A DNA stretch of 29,071 nt from Gonapodya prolifera JEL478 (lineage: Eukaryota > Monoblepharomycota > Monoblepharidomycetes > Monoblepharidales > Gonapodyaceae). Where the stretch lies: contig KQ965757.1 of the NCBI GenBank assembly GCA_001574975.1, forward strand, positions 394,239 through 423,309, in the 5' to 3' direction. Position 1 is the stretch's first letter; the number at the start of each line of letters is the position of its first letter. Both the position numbers and the translations under genes were made by a program. The notes below the pieces were generated by a model. That model was not told where the DNA came from. It did not search any database and was given only the letters and a program-made list of their open reading frames with translations. Below are positions 5,458 to 29,002 of this stretch, in pieces.

Positions 5458-7078
5458 TTACACTCCATCCCCAATAAACTTCCCACTCGGTCCCCCATAT
5501 CGCCGGTACGCCCAAAGTCCCAGGACGGCAAGTCCAACAACCCCGACCGCAAAGTACACGGTACCATCCCAGCTCGACGACATGTCCCTCCGCCGTCTTC
5601 GCTTACGCTTCTCGGGTGAATGCCCGTTTATAGACCGGTCCATGGGCGTGGCAGGTCGCAGCACGCCGGACTCCACGTCGACTTTCACTTGCGCTACCAA
5701 GTCGCCGATTGGGATTTCAGGGTGTTGGCGGTCCAGTTCGACAAGTCGCTGGATTCCCTTGTCGCCAAGTTGGGACAGTTCTTCGGGAAGGCTCAGTGTG
5801 TGGTCAAGCATGTTGGCGGCACGGAAAAGCCGAACTGCTTGACCGACGTTGCGTTGTACTCCTGCGCCGTTCGCTAGAAGACCAGGTCCGTTAAGAAGGA
5901 GAACGGCGGTGTTGTAGCAGGATTGAGGGTGTCTATCGTCAGTAAAGCAGGAGGACGTGAATGTCAGTGAAGTCAGCCCCCCAAAGAGTGAAACGCAAGC
6001 CACACACCCTAAAGCCACGGAATGCTTCCAATACTCCATCGCCATCTGCGGGTTCCCCTCTCCGATCCCAAACCCGCCCTGCAAACACATCAACCCGGCA
6101 TTGAAGCAGGCGTCCTTAAACAGCTCCGGCCTTGTTTCCCTCAAGTCCTCGACGCCAAAAACGGCTCTGTCCATCCACCGCAAAGCCTCCTTGAAGTTGG
6201 GCTCGATGCCTTCGACGTCGGGGTTCGATGGGTTCTGGTACGATCCGGCGATGGCGTAACACGCGACGGCGCTTCCGTCTTCGGCGGCGGAAAGGTAGTA
6301 GGAGTGGGAGAGTGCGGGATCGGGTTTGATGGCGTCGCCGGCACCGAGGTGGTACGCCGCGGCGAGACGGAGTTTTGCGTATGTCGAGCCCCGTTTGGCA
6401 GCTTCCTCCAGCATCCTGACAGTGTCCTTCACATCTGCGAGATGGTCCTCCTCGTAGTAGTTCGCAAGGAGGAACAACGAGTGTGAATCCAGAGTCGGGT
6501 CATCCAGGAGCTCGTCTGCAGTCGCGACGGGTTGGAGATGTGCCTGAATGCCGGATCGGATTAGGACTGGCCAGGGGATTTGGTTCGACTGGTGTTTCTC
6601 CAGATGGATGGTGACGAGTTTTCGGGGGGAATTTTTGACCTTCTCGACTTGCCTTGTTGGAGAGAAGATAAGTCAACCTGTTCGAACTTCCACCTGGATT
6701 ACCAAATCCAGGCAGGAGAGGCTCACCACAAAGACTCGAACGCATCGACCTTTCCGAACAATGTGCCCAAGATCCGGTGTGTCTTTTCTTCCTTGAGCTG
6801 CACTTCCAGTGTCGTTTCCTTGATCTTCACTGTCAAGTCTTTGGTCTATCGGAGCCAGCCCAGGGCCATCAGCGTGGTCACGGGAAATGACCCCGTCGTG
6901 TCGATTGTGGTGAGAGAATCTTGAGGGAACAGTACCGTACGACTCAACCACTCACGGAAAACGTCGAAGGCACCGACACCGTCACGTCCACATGTTTGGC
7001 CGACTGAGCGAAGGCGTAAGCAAACGCCGCCTGCGAGGGATCTGAAGCGGGAGGCAGCGGACCAAACGTGGACAGCAT
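5458..7078 (-). CDS. CS (p23/NudC-like) domain + SEL1 repeats + C-terminal membrane anchor protein, 453 aa
   Basis: Exons are 7078-6956, 6845-6727, 6652-6008 and 5932-5458, with introns of 110, 74 and 75 bp in consistent phase. Residues about 29-110 form a CS domain: DVTVSVPSTFSTKDLTVKIK, then ILGTLFGKVDAFESLWQV and KLVTIHLEKH, closely following the NudC pattern (co-chaperone fold binding Hsp90 or clients). Residues about 139-345 carry SEL1/TPR-like repeats such as AKLRLAAAYHLGAGD and AMEYWKHSVALGHPQSCYN. A basic run KRKRRRRRD is followed by a hydrophobic span VYFAVGVVGLAVLGLWAY about 15 residues from the C-terminus. This suggests a tail-anchored protein with its domains in the cytosol. The membrane (ER or outer mitochondrial) cannot be told. 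A chaperone-linked adaptor role is inference. Without the 110-bp intron an in-frame TAG would appear, so that intron is required. Confidence 0.82.
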
Positions 7079-7393
7079 CGTCTGTAGAAGTGCGTGGGGT
7101 GAAGAAAAGACGAATGGGCGGCTAAATGGGAGGCTGTTGAGCCGGCTTTGGTCGCCACGTTGAACCCACCACGTTGAAAACGTAAGTGTGCATTTCTTTT
7201 AATCAGTAAGCGATTAATTTAGATACTTTCACTATGTTCTCTTTCCTTCGGGGCGTCTCAGATTTCATAAGTGACACAGCGAGCACCATTTCCACATTTC
7301 CAGGGGAAACAAAGGAAATTTTCTATATTTATTTCCCTCAAAGAAAGCATCATTAAATCGCATACAGTCGGTTGTGATGTATATCCCCTTTCT
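7079..7393. promoter_or_regulatory. Upstream region of the CS-SEL1 gene, between two minus-strand genes
   Basis: This 315-bp gap separates the 3' end of the 99-residue gene from the start of the CS-SEL1 gene. It must hold the promoter of the latter and the 3' UTR of the former. I see no convincing TATA box. The part at 7190-7330 is AT-rich with pyrimidine runs on the minus strand. Confidence 0.4.
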
Positions 7394-7962
7394 TCACTGC
7401 TGAGTCTCGAGCCACCCACTCTTGAGCGCCCCCTGAATCATTTCCGCCTCTTTGCGAGAGTGGTCGAGTGACTGCTTGGCAGACGAAGTCGGGTCGATGG
7501 TGGCCTGGACTTCGTCCTGGATGAGGCAGGTTGAGGAGTGTGGGTTCGGTGAGTGTGGAGAGGAAGCGGGGAAACTGTCAGACGACGGGTCCGCCCGGAC
7601 TTAAAAGAGACGCACACACTCACTTTGAGCCTCTCCTGGCGAGCCTTGTCCTCCAGGTCTTGGATGTCGAGCCTGCTCTTGTCACTGGTGGTCACATCGT
7701 GACGTCAGTGATACAGCTCTTTTCAGCTAAGGGACGGTCTCATGCGCCTCCCGAGCATGGATTGTTCGAGTTTATACCCGATTGATGCCTCCCTGCGTCT
7801 CGGTTGGGCCGCTCGGGACCTCCGTTGAGAGGAAATGACTACTCACTCGTGTAGACTCGCCTGAGCCTGGTCCACGCGTCTCTGCCTCTCGTCCTCCTCG
7901 ATTTGCTTCACTTCGTCCTTTGTGATGTCGTGCTCAACGGTCGGCGTTGCGGGGGAAGTCAT
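7394..7962 (-). CDS. Small charged helical protein of unknown function, 99 aa
   Basis: Three exons, 7962-7847, 7684-7624 and 7516-7394, join in phase through introns of 162 and 107 bp (GTGAGT donors, CCAG acceptors). I chose the start MTSPATPTVE. An in-frame GTG-initiated extension to 8052 exists but has no upstream ATG. The product is strongly charged and probably helical: KDEVKQIEEDERQRRVDQAQ, DKSRLDIQDLEDKARQERLK, then QSLDHSRKEAEMIQGALKSG. There is no signal peptide, membrane segment or recognisable domain. I do not recognise the family. Its neighbours give no functional clue. Confidence 0.65.
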
Positions 7963-8592: not shown

Positions 8593-11500
8593 ATGGGCTC
8601 GTCGCAGTCACGGAGTGCGGATGTGGGCGCAACTGCTGGAGCGGAACACAGGAATGTGACTCAGCATGCACCGATGCTCGCGGTCGCAAGCGCAGCAACC
8701 GCACCACCCGCACCCCAGCAACACTCACAAAACAACGAGTCCATGCTCACAGTCCACGCAAGACCCTCAACAGAGTCCACCAGACGCTCTGCGTCTCGCT
8801 CTCGCCCACATTCACCTTCCGCCGGATCGGACTCGGACTCGTCGCAGGCCCACGCGAGGTCTCGCTCTCGCGTGAGAGACGCGACGCCGTACCGTCGCTC
8901 GGCGACAGCCTCGGTTTCTGCCAGGTCCAGACTCAGAGGTGGAGCCGCAGAAACTGCACGTGGCCGCAGGTCGTGGCCAATGGAAGCCAGCAGAGAGTCG
9001 TTCACCGACAGCACGCACGGCCACGGGCATCATTCGGTGAATCACAGTAATGCAACGTCCTTCTATAACAGCGAAGCAGCTGCTTTGCCACCAAGGGCCT
9101 CGTTCGCAGCCCGACCAATCTTGTCCACCACTGAAGACGGAAACACAATCGCAGGACCAGGAATTTCGGATCAATCAATGGACATCGATTCAGGTGAGTC
9201 TTCTTTCAAACTTACTCGCTCCTCTTCGGGGCCTCATCTTCGCCGATCCGGATGCCGCTCGCCGCCCGTCTTCGCAACTTGCCCGAATGCCTCAACTAGA
9301 CCCCCACCCGACCGGCAGTCTGGCCGACCTCACCGACCTCGTCAACATTGTCGACTCGCCCACGACATCTGCCAGACCTGATTATCTCGACGGTTCGAGG
9401 AGGGGATCGGATGTGGGATCTGTGGACAGTTCCGGTTCAACCCATGTCGACTCGGCATATGGTGGATCGCCCCAGCAAGCCGCTCCCATATCGGACGCCC
9501 ACCGGCCCCAGTCAGCTATGGGCGGTCCTGCGAGTCTGGTCTCGGCTCTCCTCTCCCTATTTTCATCCCCAACAATCCCAACAACCTCCACTCCCACTCT
9601 GGCACAACAACATTTGAACGCGTCCTCTGACCCTGTCGCCAGCTCCGCCACAGCAACCCCAACACCCGTACCACCCCTCGGCCGCCTCATCACTTCCCTG
9701 TTCGCTCGTCGTGCCACCACTGGCGCCACCCTGGCAGATGGCGCCACAACCGTCCCCGCACCTCCAGCTCCACTCTCCCCTCCGCGACCGTTTTCTACAT
9801 TCCGCCTCGCCGTTCCCACACGCCGCTCTTCTTCGCCACCCTCGTCTGATGATGGCAACGCAGATGTTGGGACGTCGACGTCCACCGGATCAACTGATCG
9901 CGGATTGAGCCAGGGACCTCCTGCGCAAGTACCCATTGTTGTCATCGGCGTACGTCGTGGGAACCCCAGGACGGATGGTACTTCTAACACGACAGGATCG
10001 AATGTGACTGCAGGAGCTGGTACTACGGAAACCCAGGCCAGAGAGTCTCAGGATGAGCCTGTTGGAGGAATAGCTGATCACCTACTAGTCGACGCCGTCA
10101 CTCCCCAGGAAGGATCCGTATCAGGCGGAAGTGACAGCACGTCCTCCGCGAATGCAACGAATGCTCGCGAGCGCCAGCCCTACGTTCTTTATGTCGTTAC
10201 AGGCCAGGTCAGTTTTCGCTACTACATGATGAGGTGTTCCTTATCACAAAAACGCAGTCTCTTTGTTTGTTTTTTCGTTCGTACTTTCATCTAATTTTCA
10301 TCACATTTCAGATCACGGTCAGTCCTGGTACGCCACTCATGGAAGAACTTGAGCAAGCTCGCTCCCGTGCACGTGCAAGGACCAGTCGCACAACCTTGCT
10401 GCGTACCCCTTCGCCTCCTGCCACAACTGAAGCTCGCCCCACGTCCGAAGTCGAGACCGCGGGACAGGATCGGATGAATGGAGAGAGCGGAAGTGATCCT
10501 TCACATGGTTTCAACTGGAGAGACTTGGCGCTTCTCGGTTCGGACAGTAGCTCGCGTGGCGCTGGCCGAAGTACTGACATGGACACTGGATCTAGCGTCA
10601 ACCGAGCACAATCTCTCTCGCAATCACCCACTCGTGCTGCTCAGGATGCCGGCATCGATGCTGGATCCCAGGAGTCGCCCATCAACCCTCCTACACAAGG
10701 CGATGCGGTCGATGAACAGTCAACGGTGTCGTCTGCAGAATCCTCAACGGCAACAGTTCCATCAGAACCATCCTCCCCAATTACCCGTGGTGATTCTACT
10801 ACTCGGACCTCGACCCGTGGCCCTCGATCTCGATCACCCTTTGGTGCCTCTGACTACGAGCTTCTTCTTCTTTTAGCTGAGTTGTTGGGTCCCGCGAAGC
10901 CCAGGCATGCCAAGCGAGACGATGTCAATAAAGTCGGAGAATGGGTATATGGGTTGGACGAAGGAGGAGATGCCTGGATTGAGGAAGTGAAGGAATATTC
11001 TGAGGGTGGTGAGGGTGAACATGGAGCTCAGGTGGCCGGTGAAGATGGATCGAAAGATGTCAGTATGGAAGAGGCGGTCCAGGTTGCGACCATTGACAAG
11101 GACGGCGACCAGGCGATGTCAAACGAAGCACCCCTCACGGAGGCCGCAATTCAACCCTCCTCAGTCAAAGAAATCGCGCGCATTCGACACCCCACCTCCC
11201 ATCTCCTCGCCTCCACGGGTACTTCCTGCTCCATCTGCATTACGCCCTACGCTTCTGGCGACCGACTTCGCCTCTTACCTTGCCGACATGCGTTCCACAC
11301 CGGTTGCTGCGACGAATGGCTGACGGGGTATAACAACGCCTGTCCCGTCTGCCGCGTCAAACCTGTCGAGAGCGAGTCTGCTGCTCAGCCCTCTCGTCGT
11401 TCGCCCTCGCCCTCGCCCGTTGATGGACCAACCCCAGCTGCTGCTGGATTTCCCGGTACTTCTACGGGAGGAGCTGGAAGCCCCGCCTCTGTTGCATCCC

Positions 11501-11655
11501 TGGTAGCGCGCTTGCTGTCTGGGAGGGGAAGGGGTGACGGATGGGTTGGACCAGTCCCCGCTGTGTTGGGGGACGAGATGGGTGGACCTGCGGGTGCCCG
11601 TGGTGGTGGTGCGGGGTTGATGTTCTTCATGATGGGGGAGACTGCCAGCAACTAG
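8593..11655 (+). CDS. Large RING-H2 finger protein, probable E3 ubiquitin ligase, 950 aa
   Basis: Exons are 8593-9193, 9300-10207 and 10312-11655, with introns of 106 and 104 bp in phase. The start MGSSQSR fits an N-myristoylation signal (Gly2, Ser6), suggesting membrane tethering. An alternative in-frame ATG at 8527 would add 22 residues and abolish this. Most of the protein is disordered Ser/Thr/Pro/Arg-rich sequence, including RSRSR-type runs around residues 60-120. A short ordered piece, YVLYVVTGQITVSPGTPLME, spans intron 2. The RING-H2 finger is at residues 809-850: CSIC, then LLPCRHAFHTGCCDEWL, then CPVC, with all eight zinc ligands in C3H2C3 order and normal spacing. It should recruit an E2 enzyme; the substrate is unknown. 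A Gly-rich tail ends in LMFFMMGETASN. It faces another RING-H2 gene tail to tail. Confidence 0.85.
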
Positions 11656-13386: not shown

Positions 13387-15491
13387 ATGCAACCCTCGCG
13401 AGCCTCTGGGATGCCGGCGCCTCTTTCTCGCGACACCAATGTTGGGCGTTCCCAGCAATTCAGCGTCGACGCCTCCGGCATCGCCACTCCTCTCGGGCGT
13501 CCACTCATGGGTCACGAATCCCGAGGGTCTCTGAACGCGCTGCACGCCAAATCGACGTTATCTCTCGCAAAGAAAAGACAATCAGGAGCAGGGATGGGAG
13601 GGATGGGATCAAGTGCGTTGTCCCCGAGGTTTCAATGAAAGCGCCGGAGTTCAAGCACACTTTTGTACTCCGCTCGTATTTCAAGGAATGTCATTGTTAA
13701 AGGGGAGGGAGAAGAGTGACAGAACTTCCTACGGTGGGAGCAGCACTCCTGAACCAGAATGCAAAGGCATCGCGAAGCTCAAGTTCTCCAAGAGGTGAAT
13801 CGAATGATTGCATTCCGAATCAGTCGTCCGCGCTCACGGCAAACACGAAATAGGTTCGAAACCGAAGTGCAAGTGGTGAAATTCTCCTCGGATGATGAGT
13901 ACATTGCTGTTGGCCTCGGGGATGGAAAAATAAATGTCAGTACTTATCCACGAATGACTCGTGGTACTCCTCAACGACCAGAAGTCTCCCTGCCGGCCAC
14001 TAGATATTCCACACAAAATCCACCCTTCTTGTTCAATCTCTGGTACCACCCACGGAAACATCTACTGTTCCACCGCTGCCTGGCGCAAAGTCAGCTACAG
14101 GGTCCAACCCGCTTCTCGCTTCACTGGAATCGATCAGTTATCCGTGCACAAGCTTAACCTGGAGGTTTGATGGATCCAAGGGCGGAGAGAACTGGACGAG
14201 GAATGTCTTGGTGGCTGGATGTGAGTTTGAATGCTTAGCTCATTCGATGCAATAATGCGTCACCGGTCTCGTACTCCCTTGAAGACGCGGATGGGCGCTT
14301 TCTGCACTGGCATGCCACTACTGGTGTCCTCCTCGCATTCAAACGAACCGCAGAAAGCGACACGTTCGGCCCAACTGGTTCTAGTCCAATCACGTCCGTA
14401 GATTCTTCACGTGACGGGTCCTATTCTGCATGTGTCGGTGACGAGCACGTTGTTCGATTGTGGGATGAGATCGAGAATCGCTGGAAGGGAATCCTGAAAG
14501 GAGGGTACGCAGATGTGTGATCTCTCTCCGAACTTTCTTGTTTCACACTCAAATAATCTCGGTCCAAAATAAAGAAATAATCCGGAGCTTCAAGGTCCCA
14601 CCTCTCGCTCGTTCGTTGTTCGTATCCACCCTCACACGTTCACGACCTTACTCACAGCCGGGTGGGACAACACGATTCAACTGTGGGACACACGAGTAGG
14701 CTCCGCTGTCTCACGGATCTACGGGCCATACGCGTGCGGGGAGAGTGTGGATTGGGATGAAGCAGGCCAACGAATTGTCAGTGGAAGCTGGCGCAAAGAA
14801 AACCAGGTCGAAATCTGGGATTATCCTTCCGGGAATAAAGTCGAAACTGTTAAGTGGAGTCTGTTCCCAGACGCCGCTGCAAAATCGACAATGATATACA
14901 CTGCGGGATTCTCACATCCAGTAAACTTCGAGGGTATCATGACGCCGTCTACTGTGCGGTTCACAAGAGATGGCCCAGGACAAGCTTACTCGGTATTCTC
15001 AGGCCAGACTACATCAGGAGAACCAAGAGAGCTCGTCAAGGAAGTGCATCTCCCCGATGGCACCGTAACAAGCAGGCTATTTTTCGCGGCTGGGAACGGC
15101 GTTCACGCGGGGCCTGCTCCTAAGTCACAGGGAGCCGGCAGTCGGAATGACTTGTCTCAAAGCAGCACAGAAAGAAGTCCAAATGCGGGTTCTAACGGGA
15201 ACGGATCTAACGCCGCGGCTGCTCCTCCAGGTGGTGAAGCAAAGATATTTGGACAGACGGTGTTCGGTCCCCGAGTAAGCATTCTTGTCTTCATAGTTGA
15301 AAGGACTATGCATCTTATGAATAACAATATTGTAGTGTGTAGCGCATATCACCGGCATTCCATCCAGTGTGTACAGCATGGGGATCTCGTATTCAGAGCG
15401 TCTCGCGGCACTAGGTGGAAGCGGAAACATTCTCTACGTGTTCGATCTCGCAACCACTGGAGACCCACGTAATCTTGAATTTTTGTATTGA
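13387..15491 (+). CDS. WD40-repeat protein, 568 aa, 7 exons
   Basis: Exons are 13387-13612, 13686-13794, 13854-13935, 14004-14220, 14285-14514, 14588-15274 and 15336-15491. All six introns are GT-AG, 59-73 bp, in phase. The N-terminal 110 residues are Ser/Gly-rich and disordered. WD-type blades follow: VVKFSSDDEYIAVGLGDGKI, SLTWRFDGSKGGENWTRNVL, ADGRFLHWHATTG, GDEHVVRLWDEIENRWKGIL, FTTLLTAGWDNTIQLWDTRV (the clearest, with the terminal WD), GQRIVSGSWRKENQVEIWDY and LAALGGSGNILYVFDLATTG. About seven blades are expected, enough for one propeller. A low-complexity insert (residues about 460-505) separates the last blades. Such propellers are protein-interaction scaffolds; the partner is unknown. 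The end at 15491 is the first stop after the last blade and is less certain than the rest. Confidence 0.8.
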
Positions 15492-18464: not shown

Positions 18465-20338
18465 ATGCCGTTTCTGCGCGTGCTTTTTACGGGCGGTAGC
18501 CATCTGATCATCATCCGCGAAGAGCCATTTCCAATGACGCTGGAGGATCTCGCCGACTTCGTGCATACTCGGGTGCGAGAGCTGGCGGGGTTGCCACCCC
18601 ACACGGTCACGTGGACATTTGTAGACGGCCCGCGGCGCATTCATCTCGACTCGGATCGGGCGGTGGCAGAAATGTGGGGTGATGCGACGGATGGCTACTG
18701 GATGGTGGAAGCTTCGACTTTGGTAAGTGTTGGTCGCGGCCATTTTAATCACCGAATCTTTTGCGACGTGATATCCAATGCAATTACAAGAAATCCAACA
18801 CAAGCTCACCCTCGTTGGGTGCTCGGCAGGCCGGCACCTCGACGACAAACATCTCCCCAGCCCTCTCGCCTGTTACCCTCAGAGGGCCAGACTCTGCTCG
18901 GCCACTGTCACCTGCAAATACTTTGGTCTCACCGCGTGAAGGGCGAATGGAAATACCTGTGGTGTACCCTAGGACGGCTGAAGGCGCACTCCTTTCGCCA
19001 TCAGATAGCGCAGCAGCAAGACCCATACGACAACGTCGCTCTTCTGACCAGAAGAGGTTCTCCAGCACCAGAAACTGGTTGTCATTCCGCTCCTGGGATG
19101 AGACTGACATCACGGAAGACACCGCCAACAACGTTTCACCGAAAGTTCTTAATGACGGGTGGGGATCAGAGAGGAGGGGCTCGAACAGTGGGTCGGAGAG
19201 GAGGGGTTCCAACAGCAGCACGCCGGCTCCCCGACCAAGGGGCGCAACATCTCCCGCCAAAGGTTTTCTTGGACTCGAGCGTGTGCAGCCACCACGGAGT
19301 GTTTCGGAATGTGCGATTTCAAATCTGGCCGTCACGTCAGACAGTGAGGCCGATACGAGCTCCCACCAAAATGGTGCGATAATAACACGAGGTGCACATC
19401 GTAGCCTAAGCCCCAGTGCGTCAATGGACAACTTTGGACGTCGCTTGTCGTCTTCATTTGGATTGTCGTCTCGCGCCAAGTCACCCAACGACGGATCGAC
19501 ACTCGTCCAGCGGCATTCCAGGACCCGAACAAGCAGCATGGACTTACGTCCCCTCGCTGGAATTTCTCGCACCAACACCCTCCGTAGGGACGCCGTGAGC
19601 TTCACGTCGAGTGACATTGGAATCAACCTTCAAGTCGCGAACCTCGACTACATGTTCCCGCTCCGGTGGAAGAGTGAACTGACGTCGTCGTGGAAGGATA
19701 TCATGGGAAGCGTGGCAAATGTCGAGTGGAGTGAGCAACGAGGGTGGTCTTACCGACAGGTGTGTAGCAACTCCGCATTCTCCTGTTCGAGAGATGCTTG
19801 AACGAATCTCAATTCAATCTTTACAGTCAGAAGTTGACACGAACGCCTTTTCGATTCGATACACTCCCTTCCGAAGAGATGACGGAACCAGTCGAACCTT
19901 GTGCAACGTGGAGATTGTGAGTTCACAAGTTATTCCTCGCTTGCTCAATTGTTGGTACTAAACTGCCTTTTCCTACTACTCCAGACGTTTCTGTACAATT
20001 CCAAGTGTCTCTTCAACGCGGCGAAAAAGAATCTCAGCCAGAAGATTGACGCTCTCCGAGTCGTGGCATTCTACAACGACTTTGTGGCCCCGCTGCAAAT
20101 TCCCGAGTCACCGAGCTCACGTGCCCTTATTTGGCGTCGGAAATCAGAACGAAAACACATTGCCACACCAATCATCACGGAGTGGGCTGCGATAGAATCT
20201 CCAGAAGCGTTCGGAACTGCGGATCTCCACGTACTGTACATCGTCCGCGCTAGCCAGGAGGCATTGAGTGACCTTTGTAAGGGGTCGGCCGAAGATTGGA
20301 TTCTCAGGGTCTTGAACCTTGCGGTCATTCGCAAATGA
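18465..20338 (+). CDS. Tandem paralogue 1: N-terminal ubiquitin-like/PB1-like module, Ser-rich linker, conserved C-terminal region, 556 aa
   Basis: Exons are 18465-18722, 18791-19759, 19827-19916 and 19985-20338; introns are 68, 67 and 68 bp, in phase. Residues 1-84 (FLRVLFTGGSHLIIIREEPF, then TLEDLADFVHTRVRELAG, then WTFVDGPRRIHLDSDRAVAE) show the strand-strand-helix-strand pattern of ubiquitin-like or PB1 folds. The fold call is inference from pattern. Residues about 87-370 are a disordered Ser/Pro/Arg linker with several RS or SP phosphosite-like motifs. The C-terminal part (about 375-556) contains LRWKSELTSSWKDIMGSVAN, WSEQRGWSYRQ, KCLFNAAKKNLSQKI and DLHVLYIVRASQEAL, all shared with the next gene. 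There is no membrane segment or known catalytic motif. It is separated from its paralogue by 280 bp in the same orientation. Confidence 0.8.
19163..19216 (+). repeat. 27-bp in-frame tandem duplication in the linker of paralogue 1
   Basis: Two adjacent 27-bp units (19163-19189 and 19190-19216) each encode GSERRGSNS. They differ at only a few positions, several of them synonymous (GGC/GGT, TCG/TCC, AGT/AGC). The unit keeps the frame and adds an RRGSN motif, which resembles a basophilic kinase site. It indicates recent slippage growth of the linker. Confidence 0.8.
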
Positions 20339-20484
20339 CTTGATTGATCCGGTATTACCTGGGTATTTCTTCTTCTCGAACACTTTCCGTGGACTTTCCT
20401 CGACTTGTAAAATCGTTTTACTACCTCACCAGACAGTTTTGATGATACCTTACACATATTTTTGTAAACTCTACTCTAATGTGG

Positions 20485-20490
20485 TATAAA
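20485..20490 (+). promoter_or_regulatory. Possible TATA box of tandem paralogue 2
   Basis: TATAAA occurs in the sequence TGGTATAAATTATG about 130 bp before the ATG at 20619. The spacing is plausible for a fungal promoter, but no transcription start is known. It is the only perfect TATAAA I noticed in this 280-bp gap. Confidence 0.35.
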
Positions 20491-20618
20491 TTATGAGTGA
20501 ATGGCAAACACCCAAGCGAACATATATACTAAAATAAGACTCGCTGGAGAGTGCTTACCCTGTACCGATTGAGTGAGACGGTTTCCGTTTTCGGGTTTCT
20601 GCAGGACACCCTCCCGCC

Positions 20619-22718
20619 ATGACTCATCCAACCCCACTCCGACAGGATCTCGAAAGCCCCCACACAATCGAGGAGAGACACGCATTTTTTGCGTCCATCT
20701 GTCAATCTCGAACCCTTTTCGACGTGATATTGACGGCTTGCCGGGACAGTGCCCGTTTTGAAAACATGGCGCCAATTCAACGACTCAAGATTCTTCACCC
20801 CTCCGGCTCGAACCTCATTATCGTACGACCGGAACAACGGCCCTGGAATCTGCTCGATTTCATTGCATTCCTGAAAACGCGCCTTCCACCTGCGCTGGGG
20901 AACTTTCGTCCCGAGGATTTGAAACTTGTAGTCTCGGAGGGGGAAAGTTTCGACGAGTTCGAGCTGCTTTCCACAGAGGATGTTTGGAGGCTTTGGGCGA
21001 GTCCTGAAGTCGCTTTGACGTGCAATGTAGAACTTGTTCCTGGATATGCTCCCGAGGTGCAGTGTTTCTCAAAGTTTTTGTTCGCCTGCCGCTTCTTCAA
21101 CTCGCTTGCACGTCCGGAAACTCACCAGCGAGCTATCATCGGTCTGGAAATTCCATTGCCGCCTCGAAAATCGTCCCCCCCGGGAGGTGGTCGCAGATTG
21201 CCACCGATCCCTCACATCGATCCTCGGCGGACATCGGAGCTCACGTTGAGTGATGAAGAGGTCCGGAAACCTCCAAATGGCAGTACGGTCGACAATCCAC
21301 CGCTGGCGGCCGGGACGCTGCCCGGCCAAATTGCAATCGCCCCACCTCCCTATCTACGACTCCCGTTGGAGGACTTATCCTCTTCCGATTCCGATTCACG
21401 CCCACTCTCGACAGTCCACTCACGTCACAGTATCCACTCGTCGGTGACGGCGACCTTAAGTGATGTGGTGAATAAAGACGAGCTCACCAACATTTCGAAT
21501 GTGGAGCTTCCGACCATCGCTCGACCAAAGAGACACTCGCTGAACGTGATGACGACCGCGAAGGATATTCTTCCGGGAATGCTCCGCTCACGATTGCCGG
21601 ACACCGTGGAGAAGGGCTACGCTTCTATCTATTGTGACGTGGGGTTTGACAACGGAGGTGATGTGGGAGGCTTGGTCTCGGCAAACGTCCACCGAAATGT
21701 CGGTGTCACTCGTGCAAAGGGTACCGATCGCCCCAGTGCCACAGTGGATCTGTCGCCTCAGGATACCGCTGAGCCGGAGATTACGCTCGGCTTATCGAAC
21801 CATGGACCCAGAACTCCACCCAGTACACCACATCCTCCGGCACCAGGCGGAGGCACTCGCGCAGTAAACATGTATCGCCGGCTGTCACTGTTGAATCTAA
21901 AGCTGACACAGGGATATTCGGCAGCGTCGACAACTTCTTCAAGTGTTAACGCTATCCCACCTTCGAGTGGACAGCTGGAGGAGCAACTGCGGATATTTTT
22001 ATCGGGAGGTGGACATTATGATGCTGAGCTGATGTGGAAAAGCGAGGAGGATGCAACATTCAGGGAAATCATGGGAGAGCTTGCGGACGACAGATGGACT
22101 CCACAACGGGGCTGGGGCTACAAAATGGTAATAAATGTGCATCGTCATATTGTGCGTGACCAATAACAATTTTTCCTGACATGATATGTTCCCAAAGGCT
22201 GCCATGGATTCTCATCAGCATCTGGTGCAATACATCCCCCGGAACACTTCCTGGGAAAAAGCGAAAAGCCGTGGCTACCTTCAATTTGTGAGTTTGTGAA
22301 GTTTTTTGATCTGAGTCATCTCTTCTCTAATCCGTCCATGTGACTTGTGTGATACCTCTGCACTGAAAAGACCATAATTTATAATTCACAGCACCTCTTC
22401 CACACAGCAAAACGCACCCTCCCGACAAAACTGCCAGACCTTCGTGTTCCCACCTTTCACAGCGAGTTCATTGAGCCACTCAGCTCTCCGACGCATGGAC
22501 CGGGCACTGGGAGGCACACGGAGTGGGCGTGCCTCTTCCCCGAAGGTCGATTCAGACCACCAAATGATGGTTCTGGGGATGTCCACGTTGCGTACGTGGT
22601 TAGAGCGGCAGGAGATGAGCTCGGACATAGCTGCAAGAGCGTCGTTCAGGACTGGGTCAGGGAGATGGTTGGAGTCCAAGGTGATTGGGGTGAGTGCATG
22701 ACTGTGTTTATTCTATGA
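20619..22718 (+). CDS. Tandem paralogue 2: same architecture as paralogue 1, about 617 aa
   Basis: Exons are 20619-21056, 21129-22127, 22198-22287 and 22392-22718. The 72-bp first intron (21057-21128) is probable. It is a multiple of three and stop-free, so retention would add an F-rich stretch of 24 residues. The ATG at 20619 has strong context (CCGCCATGA). The ATG at 20766 aligns with the start of paralogue 1, so the 49-residue extension is uncertain. The N-terminal module reads IQRLKILHPSGSNLIIVRPE and LLDFIAFLKTRLPPAL. The linker is Pro/Ser-rich. The C-terminal region has LMWKSEEDATFREIMGELAD, WTPQRGWGYKM, HLFHTAKRTLPTKLPDLRV and DVHVAYVVRAAGDE. Its third exon is 90 nt, exactly as in paralogue 1, and falls at the same place in the protein. 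No catalytic motif is seen. Function unknown. Confidence 0.78.
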
Positions 22719-24769
22719 TATGGCAAATTCATGACGCCTCGAAAACCATTGATTTTTGCTTTTTGCTCATCGCTGTGGTGCTTAGCTCTATCTGCTGCCG
22801 CTCCCAAGTTCCGAGTCTGGCGAGGTTAGAATCAATCTGAGGACCAAAGCAGTTCCAGACTGTTATAATGCTTAATTCTTATTGGTATATGTGTTGAATG
22901 GACTTTGTCAGACCATTTGCATCATTACGTGCATTTTCATAATCAACCTGTGACGTGTGCCACCGAGTCAAAACGGCCATCCAAAATTTATCAATTATTG
23001 AGAGTAAACCATTTCACATTTCTCTTCTCTTCTTTACCATTTTTGGTGAAAATCATCAATAATTAAGTTTGGTGGAACAGGACAAATGCAAAATGTTTCA
23101 TCTCATTGACGTGGCTCCCGCCCTGTGGCACAACCTGGTGACGCGAAGAAGGCAAGCGCAGGCAGGCAAACACGAGTACAGCTGTATCGGTTGAATTGCT
23201 ATGCTCCCTTGCCATGTGTGCGTCTTCTATTGACAGGCCTGAGTGCCTCGCTCGATGGTCAGAAAAGCTTCCCAGTTTCCGCATCAAGCAATCTTTAGAC
23301 CTAAACAATTGCCCGCAAAGTAACGAAAGGGTTTTAGTTGGGGGCGTTAATCAAGTTTGGGAGGTGTTGCAGTGATGGCTAGGAATTTCTCTGTTGGCTT
23401 TAGTTGACCATTGGCAATGAATGGCAGAAGTCACCCAGGCCTTTGCACACACATGTACGGAACTACAAATAAAGCATCTAATGAAGCGTGTTACTTGAAA
23501 CTCAGGCATACAGCAGAAGCATTGCACCCAGATTCGAACAACCNNNGGTCACAACAGTAACCTGGCAGACCAACAACAAAGTATCAATTCTAAAGACTTG
23601 GTCTGACTTGCCTGCACAATCTACAAATTTCTAGCATGGATATAGACCCCAGAATCGTTGGTATAGTTGCACAAATATTGGAGATGTTGGCAGCACACGT
23701 CCCGCATCAACCCAATCCCCCTCCTGCTTCCCCTGTCTCACTCTAACCTCGCCATGCAGCTATTAGAGGTGTGCATTGTTGGGACCTGTGTCTTTGTTTC
23801 ACAGGCAAAGCCATGAGGGGCGGTGATCCGGAGCTAAAATGTTAATTGAATGTGATTTCAAACATTTGTGATCCAACATTATCTTTTCCTTTTCCTTTTG
23901 CAGCTTTAATGGTGAAAACGCTTAAAGATTAAACTGAAATCAAAATGTATCAAGGTTAAAGGACACCTGGCGGTTTTGCAGAACAAACGCTACACTTATA
24001 TTTTAAATCATGAAGATAAAATACAGTCCACACCTTGCGCCGACCAAGCACACACCAATGTGGCAGACACCAAAACATGCAAGACAATTTATCTGACCCT
24101 TCCAATTCAGACGCGGGGACTTGGGCTATGTTGCAAACAAAAAGGAGGCGCCAGTACTGGTGCAGTTGATCCTCCTCTCTCAGCTGGAGTGGGTGATCCC
24201 AGCAGAAAGGTCTTTCTATGAAGACGCAAGGCTCAACTTGAATGCCATGTTGAATCCAGACTGCTTGTGGAACTTTCAGTGAGTTCTGGCAGGAACAATA
24301 AACACCGCCGTATATCCAACAAAGTCAACATTGTTCTGGACGTAGTGCGGTAAGTGATGTCAAGACTCTTAATCTGTAGATATCTTCGCCAGTAGCGCAC
24401 TAGCCAAGATGATAGTAGAAGTTGAAGACAAAAGAAAGAGATCAAATCTATGCCCAAGAACTAAGTGGCAAAATCTTGGTTATCTCAATCCTTAGTGTTG
24501 TACGGATGTCCAGCAGAATGATTCAACAAGTGCACCAATTTTGTCCTATTTTGCCTTCTTCTCTGGTTGTCTGTTACTGTATCTCTTTCAACTCGCGAAT
24601 CCCTCCATCTTTTTCTTCGGCTCCAATGCTTGCCGGCTCACCACGCCGAAAGCTCCCTTTACAAGCAGCGCAGCTGCAGTTGCACAGTAGTCCTCAAAAT
24701 ATTGTAGTTAGAATCAATTTAACGAAACTTAAGTATCTACTACTGACTGTGTTACCAATATTCCTCCGC
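22719..24769. other. Gene-poor stretch with assembly gap
   Basis: About 2 kb without any open frame that looks like protein on either strand. It starts with the 3' UTR of paralogue 2. A weak inverted repeat sits near 22986-23066 (TTATCAATTATTGA against TCATCAATAATTAAG). A 3-base gap lies at 23544-23546. Short frames at 23063-23308 and 23976-24221 lack motifs and splice logic. Confidence 0.5.
23544..23546. other. Assembly gap (NNN)
   Basis: Three undetermined bases interrupt the sequence in the middle of the gene-poor region. A run of exactly three probably marks a join or masked call of unknown true size, so adjacent structure should not be trusted across it. Confidence 0.95.
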
Positions 24770-28062: not shown

Positions 28063-28994
28063 ATGTCCGGAGGTGACACTGGGAGCAATGGTGTTGTTGT
28101 GAACGCAATGAGTGGTGTCGAAACACTGATCTCTGCCACCAATTTGGTGGCTGCACCACCAGTGCCCATAGTGGTTAGTGTCATGTTGGGTTGCTTCTCG
28201 TTGGCACTGTGCTTTAACCTTGTGGTGTGAAACTGGAAGGCTGTGGCGAATGTCGTTCTGCCTCTGTCCCAACCACAACTGGCTCCCTTTGCACCTCTGG
28301 GGATGCCGATGCCAGGAGCTGCCCAGGGAAATCCGGATTTCTCAGCAGCAACTGTCAACAATGTCGTGGGCCTGGGCCTAAGCTCTCTACTCTCCACATT
28401 ATTGATGCAACAAGTCCCCAACATGGGTGCTTCACCGAGTCCGTTTGCTCCCACCGTGGGAAATTGGAACTCTTATCAAGGCACGCTGGACGTGGTGCAA
28501 CAGGAAGATTGTGGTGGCAATCAGACAAGGGTCATCTTGGCTCAGGTATGCGTGCTCAAAGCTCGCAACATGATCGTTCCTCATCTGAGTCATCTCCTGT
28601 GCTTGTTTGGTAGTTTGGGGGCAACCATAGTTGCAGCCCATCACAGCACTATGACATTTCCAGACCTCTGAGCTCCACAAGGCCAACAACAAGGTACGCT
28701 CAACCTCATTTTGCGCGGACGCTCTCACCTGGTTGTCCAAGTCCTCTGGGGGGGTATTCAATTGGTTCCCAACATGGCACAGCCACTGACACTTCTCAAT
28801 ACTTCAGAATGGGTTATTGCAAGTGTTCAAACAACTCCTCCAAGAGGTGAGCATTACTTCTTGAGTTTTTGAATGGTTTAAAGAATTCATTGTATTGATT
28901 TTTACAGGGAATACAGCACCACAATGGAATTCTTCTGGTGCATACGCAAATTTGCGGAATGCTCATAGACAGTCGGGATTGGGCGGAGGGTTAG
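28063..28994 (+). CDS. Multi-exon gene of unknown function with one in-frame stop, Pro/Gly/Asn-rich
   Basis: From the ATG at 28063 the frame reads MSGGDTGSNGVVVNAMSGVE and a hydrophobic span, VPIVVSVMLGCFSLALCFNL, then a TGA at 28228-28230. The same frame then continues with VANVVLPLSQPQLAPFAPLG and QGTLDVVQQEDCGGNQTRVI. Exons 28063-28545, 28664-28693, 28808-28846 and 28908-28994 join in phase through GT-AG introns of 118, 114 and 61 bp. They give a C-terminus GLLQVFKQLLQEGIQHHNG, LVHTQICGMLIDSRDWAEG. The stop TAG at 28992-28994 is part of a TTAGGG tract. The internal TGA means either a pseudogene or an additional intron in the first exon. I recognise no family. Confidence 0.45.
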
Positions 28995-29002
28995 GGTTAG
29001 GG
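28987..29002 (+). repeat. Short interstitial telomere-like tract (AGGG + 2x TTAGGG)
   Basis: AGGG is followed by two perfect TTAGGG units. TTAGGG is the telomere repeat of most filamentous fungi. The following bases (29012-29040) are G-rich but not repeat-like. So short a tract could be chance or a scar of end-repair. It sits about 70 bp from the window edge, so a longer array to the right cannot be judged. Confidence 0.6.

Follow-up and report, generated by a model that had tools for sequence, protein, structure and literature searches.

Two adjacent genes belong to a large family of proteins that join a PB1 domain to a C-terminal domain without a recognised match

Introduction

Two adjacent genes, here called A and B, lie on the same strand of a 29,071-nt stretch of genomic DNA (the window, C27:394239-423309, which reaches the end of that contig), and raise the question of what kind of protein they encode and how much of it is new. 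An initial annotation regarded them as a tandem pair of paralogues that define an undescribed two-domain family, with a ubiquitin-like or PB1-like module at the N-terminus and a C-terminal region in which no motif was recognised. Genes A and B are here found to be members of a much larger family of about 28 loci in the genome, and therefore do not define it as a pair. The N-terminal half belongs to a known domain, PB1, while the C-terminal domain has no significant match in Pfam, NCBIfam or the PDB, the libraries to which the word "undescribed" is limited in this study. Since the N-terminal half is known, any novelty has to lie in the C-terminal domain and in the architecture; of the claim of an undescribed two-domain family, that part may stand and the remainder falls.

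Gene models and comparison of A with B

The gene models were built from sequence, and all positions given for A and B are those of the window. Gene A is modelled with four exons at 18465-20338 (+), encoding 543 residues, with every intron in phase 0; gene B is modelled with five exons at 20766-22829 (+), encoding 580 residues. Both have the same layout, in which an exon of 86-97 codons is followed by a linker exon ending in W.S....IMG...W..QRGW.Y, a 90-nt exon and a last large exon. The C-terminal coding region is divided below into blocks C1, C2 and C3.

18465..18722 (+), gene A exon 1: PB1-type N-terminal domain, residues 1-86; a row of the family N profile that matches PB1 structures
18830..19642 (+), gene A exon 2, first part: Ser/Arg/Pro-rich linker, unlike the B linker; omega 0.44 between haplotypes
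19643..19759 (+), gene A exon 2, end: block C1 (WKSE...IMG...W..QRGW.Y); the C1 profile matches in 42 of 44 family groups
19827..19916 (+), gene A exon 3, 90 nt: block C2
19985..20338 (+), gene A exon 4, including the stop: block C3, in the 40-row alignment; omega 0.04 for C1-C3 jointly
20766..21056 (+), gene B exon 1: PB1-type N-terminal domain, in the family N alignments; omega 0.14
21057..21128 (+), gene B intron 1, 72 nt: GTGCAG...CACCAG, at the same position as gene A intron 1
21129..22010 (+), gene B exon 2, first part: Pro/Ser-rich linker; omega 0.83; proline motifs of SH3-ligand pattern
22011..22127 (+), gene B exon 2, end: block C1, by family C1 profile and alignment
22198..22287 (+), gene B exon 3, 90 nt: block C2
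22371..22689 (+), gene B exon 4: block C3, starting TIIYNSQHLF; AAAAG acceptor, GTGAGT donor and the family motif T[IL][FI][FY] at its start
22786..22829 (+), gene B exon 5, 44 nt, including the stop: 45 bases from 22786 are identical in both haplotypes

A colinear copy of the region is held by contig C21, at ~90% identity over the 6 kb around A and B and 87% at window 5461-7461, and C27 and C21 are therefore read as the probable two haplotypes of one region. Three aspects of the gene B model depend on details of its sequence or on this second copy. Gene B has a fourth intron, in phase 1, after a GDW motif (22690-22785, GTGAGT...TTAG); inspection of the sequence revealed no intron after this motif in gene A. 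The intron is 84.5% identical between the haplotypes, against 100% in the exon behind it. The end at 22718 given by the initial annotation was abandoned, as that stop sits inside the intron and the C21 haplotype has no stop there; the end is placed instead at 22829, through the intron and the 44-nt exon. A start of exon 4 at 22392 was likewise rejected, as it shortens the conserved TIIYN strand by seven residues, whereas a start at 22371 restores the motif; the Pfam scan, genome search, alignment, haplotype omega values and trees used the 22392 form of gene B. Finally, 21057-21128 is in frame in the window copy, and a continuous reading through it was rejected on comparison with the C21 haplotype. 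Because that haplotype has a 1-nt indel within it, the comparison supports this segment being an intron, despite its weak donor (GTGCAG).

The C-terminal regions of A and B, ~180 residues in common, align with 106 bits and 30% identity across 184 columns, against at most 21.6 bits in 100 shuffles. The N-terminal regions score 31.6 bits, against at most 24.6 bits in 100 shuffles of B. The two linkers, compared without a shuffle control, score 17.7 bits (E 0.25) and show no similarity. The two ends are thus homologous and the linkers unrelated, as had been proposed, and the shared intron positions are borne out as well: three positions coincide, all in phase 0, and the third exon is exactly 90 nt in both genes.

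Family size, arrangement and selection

Protein searches of the genome and iterated exon profiles applied to the matched stretches gave 44 groups among the best-scoring candidates. By hand count these represent 28 distinct loci, 16 haplotype pairs and 12 singles, obtained by pairing near-identical copies on a tree of 40 C-terminal exons and adding the rows omitted from it; the search scores the best candidates only, and some singles may correspond to missing alleles. The 40-row alignment leaves out C5, the split copies described below and the copy at C105:126.4 kb, all of which are counted among the 28 loci. Blocks N, C1 and C3 occur in this order on one strand in 25 of the 44 groups, and an extra PB1 match at C105:124381, just beyond the stretch examined there, would complete one more. 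Searches with two other members (E ≤ 0.01) found no places beyond the stretches already known; a weak match lies elsewhere, at C106:162885-163088 (E 0.005). A pattern search for the family in viral contigs gave five pattern matches, none of which was confirmed.

Family genes form tandem clusters on C36/C105 and C51/C95, and in the trees the paralogues are highly diverged from each other. The copies at C51:122 kb and C55:141 kb, at least, look degenerate, their block C3 being split over different frames, and the copy at C105:126.4 kb has an in-frame TAG inside block C3. The best tree groups gene A with the C26/C31 loci, with weak support (90/76), and not with B. Constraining A and B as a clade costs 1.16 log units in a second tree, from which 9 diverged rows of the 40 were left out (approximately unbiased test, p-AU 0.195), and is neither supported nor rejected. 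The description of A and B as a tandem pair holds in that they are adjacent paralogues on the same strand; a private tandem duplication is not established.

Between C27 and C21, omega for gene A is 0.26 in the N-terminal domain, 0.44 in the linker and 0.04 in the C-terminal domain, and for gene B 0.14, 0.83 and 0.17 respectively, the last counted from 22392. Among haplotype pairs of the wider family, omega in the C-terminal exon ranges from 0.01 to 0.32, with estimates from 11 of 13 pairs and the final 12 codons trimmed from every C3 pair; in the N exon it ranges from 0.02 to 0.30, with estimates from 3 of 5 pairs. Two C3 pairs and two N pairs gave no estimate, and two of these four encode identical proteins. 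By these values both ends are under purifying selection and the linkers of A and B are less constrained, in agreement with the earlier view that both ends are constrained.

Two further differences between copies were observed. The family genes at C36:126-151 kb are inverted in order and orientation at C105:124-152 kb, the regions at C36:116-120 kb and C105:86-90 kb agree, and the C36 loci at 98.3 and 124.1 kb have no C105 counterpart among the matches (regions compared, C36:94-152 kb and C105:82-152 kb); this pattern would reflect either a haplotype inversion with presence/absence variation or a misassembly. In the allele-like couple L028 (C51:88 kb) and L022 (C70:243 kb), the intron between C1 and C2 is absent from L028 and present in L022.

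The N-terminal domain

A 26-row profile of the family N-terminal domain was compared with sequences of the PDB, and nine of the ten sequences listed at E ≤ 10 are PB1 proteins (NBR1, Cdc24 and p40phox), with agreement mainly across the second half of the domain. The Pfam PB1 family (PF00564) matches 9 of the 26 members at E ≤ 1, and its gathering score of 23.6 is passed by two of the ten members scanned singly, L027:3805-4062 (28.9 bits) and L024:2520-2780 (23.9 bits). The identification of the module as ubiquitin-like or PB1-like was thus correct for the family, and A and B are assigned to PB1 because they are homologous to the members that match it.

The acidic OPCA motif of PB1 domains (core D-x-D/E-x-D/E) is kept in part: 23 of the 26 rows carry an acidic residue at three columns of OPCA type, namely the first core position and two sites further on, against 14 at the second core position. 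The column of the strand-2 lysine is basic in 20 of 26 (haplotype copies count twice in all such residue counts). Both features vary in the pair under study: gene A has a gap at the second core position of OPCA and Ala at the last site, gene B has Thr at an inner site, and the strand-2 lysine is H in A and N in B.

Other PB1 matches above the Pfam cut-off lie outside the family loci, on C14, C87, C19, C16 and C9. Translations at C9, C62 and C19, read by eye, contain a canonical-looking OPCA motif.

The C-terminal domain

The C-terminal domain has conserved motifs, W-QR-WGYK and TEWA. Neither the 40 C3 exons nor 15 spliced domains had a significant match in Pfam, where nothing scored better than E 0.038; the domain had no significant match in NCBIfam (best E 0.085), and none among PDB sequences searched by profile. 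Several weak candidates were set aside. Single members gave PROL5-SMR at E 0.038 and DUF3615 at E 0.047, and DUF3615 reappeared at E 0.064 among the spliced domains. An ELYS beta-propeller match (E 0.048) in the Pfam scan of the A and B proteins was too weak, as were a glyoxalase-like protein (3gm5, E 0.075) and outer capsid protein P8 (E 0.49) in the PDB profile search. One alignment hinted at an internal repeat, of C1-C2 with the second half of C3, which was dismissed at an hhalign probability of 0.1% and E 0.62. Four alignments, this one among them, had exon fragments in the wrong place and were kept out of the folding.

Since none of 39 stretches showed C1-C3 open without an intron or an intron-like insert, the member chosen for folding, L028, was read through its intron, which added 33 foreign residues. 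The second AlphaFold model has a predicted local distance difference test (pLDDT) score of 71 and a predicted template modelling (pTM) score of 0.72; the first model had a pLDDT of 60. In the second model, pLDDT is 81-95 for C1 and 56-95 for C3, with 7 of 11 C3 blocks at 86 or above, and a large part of the domain is predicted to be ordered. The predicted order of elements, short ones omitted, is strand, strand, helix, strand, strand, the insert, strand, helix, helix, strand, strand and a long helix. Foldseek found nothing in the PDB at E ≤ 0.001 for either model, and the second model had no match among viral structure models. VIA fold comparison gave best Z scores of 3.2 for the first model and 2.5 for the second; START or VASt domains do not appear in its two lists, which does not amount to an exclusion. 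These fold-search negatives are weak, because the models contain the 33-residue insert and a poorly modelled C2. The initial annotation of a C-terminal region without a recognised motif is upheld, in that searches of Pfam, NCBIfam and the sequences and folds of the PDB gave it no named domain; the predicted fold is without a match, and is not thereby proven to be new.

Proposed role and alternative explanations

A PB1 head, connected through a loosely constrained linker to a second domain that is itself under constraint, suggests that A and B belong to a large family of PB1-docked adaptors with a recognition tail of unspecified kind, a reading that we consider to have about an even chance of being right. 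PB1 domains dock to one another through acidic and basic faces (PMC7051960). On the proposed plan, each protein would consist of a PB1 head, a long low-complexity linker and a C-terminal domain of ~180 residues, and would presumably act inside the cell. Docking of the head could involve an acidic face, formed by OPCA, and a basic face on strand 2 that is retained in part; the PB1 domains bound in this way would belong to family relatives or to a partner of the polarity, NADPH-oxidase or autophagy type. The linker would serve as a flexible tether, and the C-terminal domain would bind a partner or ligand, the head placing the protein in a complex, so that the family might act as a set of related adaptors. 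The SH3-ligand-pattern motifs of the B linker may have arisen by chance in a proline-rich stretch.

Several observations weigh against an adaptor family of this kind. No N-terminal domain was found in 19 of the 44 groups; at least one of these stretches ends short, and others may lack the domain. The best E value of the PDB matches to the N profile is 0.005 and single matches are weak, and the N-terminal domains of A and B alone gave no Pfam match, PB1 included. At the second OPCA core position little more than half of the rows (14 of 26) have an acidic residue, and the canonical strand-1 lysine is missing, the position being basic in 2 of 26 (strand labels were read from the sequence). Type-1 PB1 domains require no lysine under the typing in PMC7051960, and since the strand-1 lysine is not kept, the domain of the family would be type-1 by those definitions. 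Because the strand-2 lysine is replaced and OPCA is partly eroded in A and B, these two proteins would probably dock weakly or asymmetrically. Within the C-terminal domain, block C2 is badly modelled (pLDDT 42-65).

The C-terminal domain could instead be a very diverged form of a known fold, such as a START/SRPBCC-like lipid-binding fold or another of alpha/beta type, which would make the proteins PB1-docked carriers of an established kind, with no new domain. We regard this as possible yet rather doubtful. The predicted succession of strands and helices, with its long last helix, is of a common alpha/beta kind, and the non-significant Foldseek rows include the START/SRPBCC proteins CERT START (first model) and ZhuI, TTHA0849 and Ara h 8 (second model). 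The likeness to START/SRPBCC or VASt, however, is limited to a broadly similar strand succession and the long last helix; there is no significant sequence or fold match to the domain, with no Foldseek result at E ≤ 0.001, no VIA Z above 3.2 and no family below E 0.038, weak as these negatives are. The tandem clusters on C36/C105 and C51/C95, the lack, among the matches, of C105 partners for two C36 loci and the strong divergence of the paralogues would also suit a fast-evolving recognition family, concerned with allorecognition or with defence against viruses or competitors and shaped by tandem birth and death. This is unlikely, since no positive selection was seen (the A and B linkers, the sole linkers tested, have omega values below 1, and the domains are under purifying selection) and no effector, NLR or toxin family is among the Pfam matches of A or B. 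That the genes are functionless relics of a mobile element or of a decaying gene family is very improbable: the degenerate-looking copies at C51:122 kb and C55:141 kb, the in-frame TAG at C105:126.4 kb and the dispersed repeat downstream of B point in that direction, but open frames, exon structure and an omega below 1 in every pair giving an estimate speak against it.

The preferred reading, of PB1-docked adaptors, was compared with known PB1 systems. Four fungal PB1 families, Bem1, Cdc24, NoxR and Mug70, are described from 12 fungal proteomes, with p62-like and PB1-SAM proteins set aside as occurring in one species each; the companion domains are SH3 and PX in Bem1, DH and PH in Cdc24, and CBS in Mug70 (PMC7051960, section 9). 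None of SH3, PX, DH, PH or CBS was found in the spliced A or B proteins (Pfam, E ≤ 10). The family resembles established PB1 proteins (Cdc24, Bem1, NoxR and NBR1) in its N profile, which matches NBR1, Cdc24 and p40phox, and in a partly kept OPCA-type acidic motif, but differs in lacking the canonical strand-1 lysine and in occupying about 28 loci in one genome. PB1 itself is known; what may be new is a PB1 protein with an unmatched tail domain, a plan that is not among the four fungal families of PMC7051960. Among the publications listed as matches, judged by their titles and the starts of their abstracts, nothing dealt with such a family.

A multi-copy PB1 family is also found in plants, where ARF and Aux/IAA have more than 20 copies (PMC7051960). 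The resemblance is an analogy of plan and not homology beyond PB1. In ARF the PB1 domain is at the opposite end and a DNA-binding domain is present, whereas none was seen in the family described here. By analogy with ARF and Aux/IAA, a new alpha/beta domain carried on PB1 heads at ~28 loci could form a combinatorial head-to-tail network with varied recognition surfaces, a speculative extension to which we give a small though real chance. PB1-headed paralogues with an unmatched tail at some 28 loci would amount to a large PB1 family not described before, and would offer a concrete object for structural work and for the mapping of interactions.

Genomic setting

The initial annotation had proposed a profile search over basidiomycete proteomes. 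Families searched for in the genome point elsewhere: DM10, an axonemal domain, gave 11 matches above the cut-off at three places (C1:44-46 kb, C29:291-293 kb and C93:95-97 kb), and Zn2Cys6, which is mainly fungal, gave 63, while 14 control genomes had no DM10 and no Zn2Cys6 match. Because of the DM10 family and the many Zn2Cys6 matches, the genome looks like that of a flagellated (zoosporic) fungus and not of a basidiomycete. Hydrophobin and STE3 searches gave no matches in this genome and none in the control genomes, and are therefore uninformative.

A dispersed repeat lies just 3′ of gene B, at window 22963-23598; apart from the C21 copy, eight other sites in the genome match it with 69-81% identity. 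Two TTAGGG units are present at window 28991-29002, within the final 100 bases of the contig, and C21 ends ~900 bases past the point matching window 23600; the end of the window is possibly subtelomeric. Neighbouring open reading frames at 5461-6672 (-), 10135-11652 (+) and 13753-15469 (+) match Sel1 repeats, a RING-H2 finger and WD40-type propellers; the WD40-type match is nearest to a THOC3-like family, under its curated cut-off.

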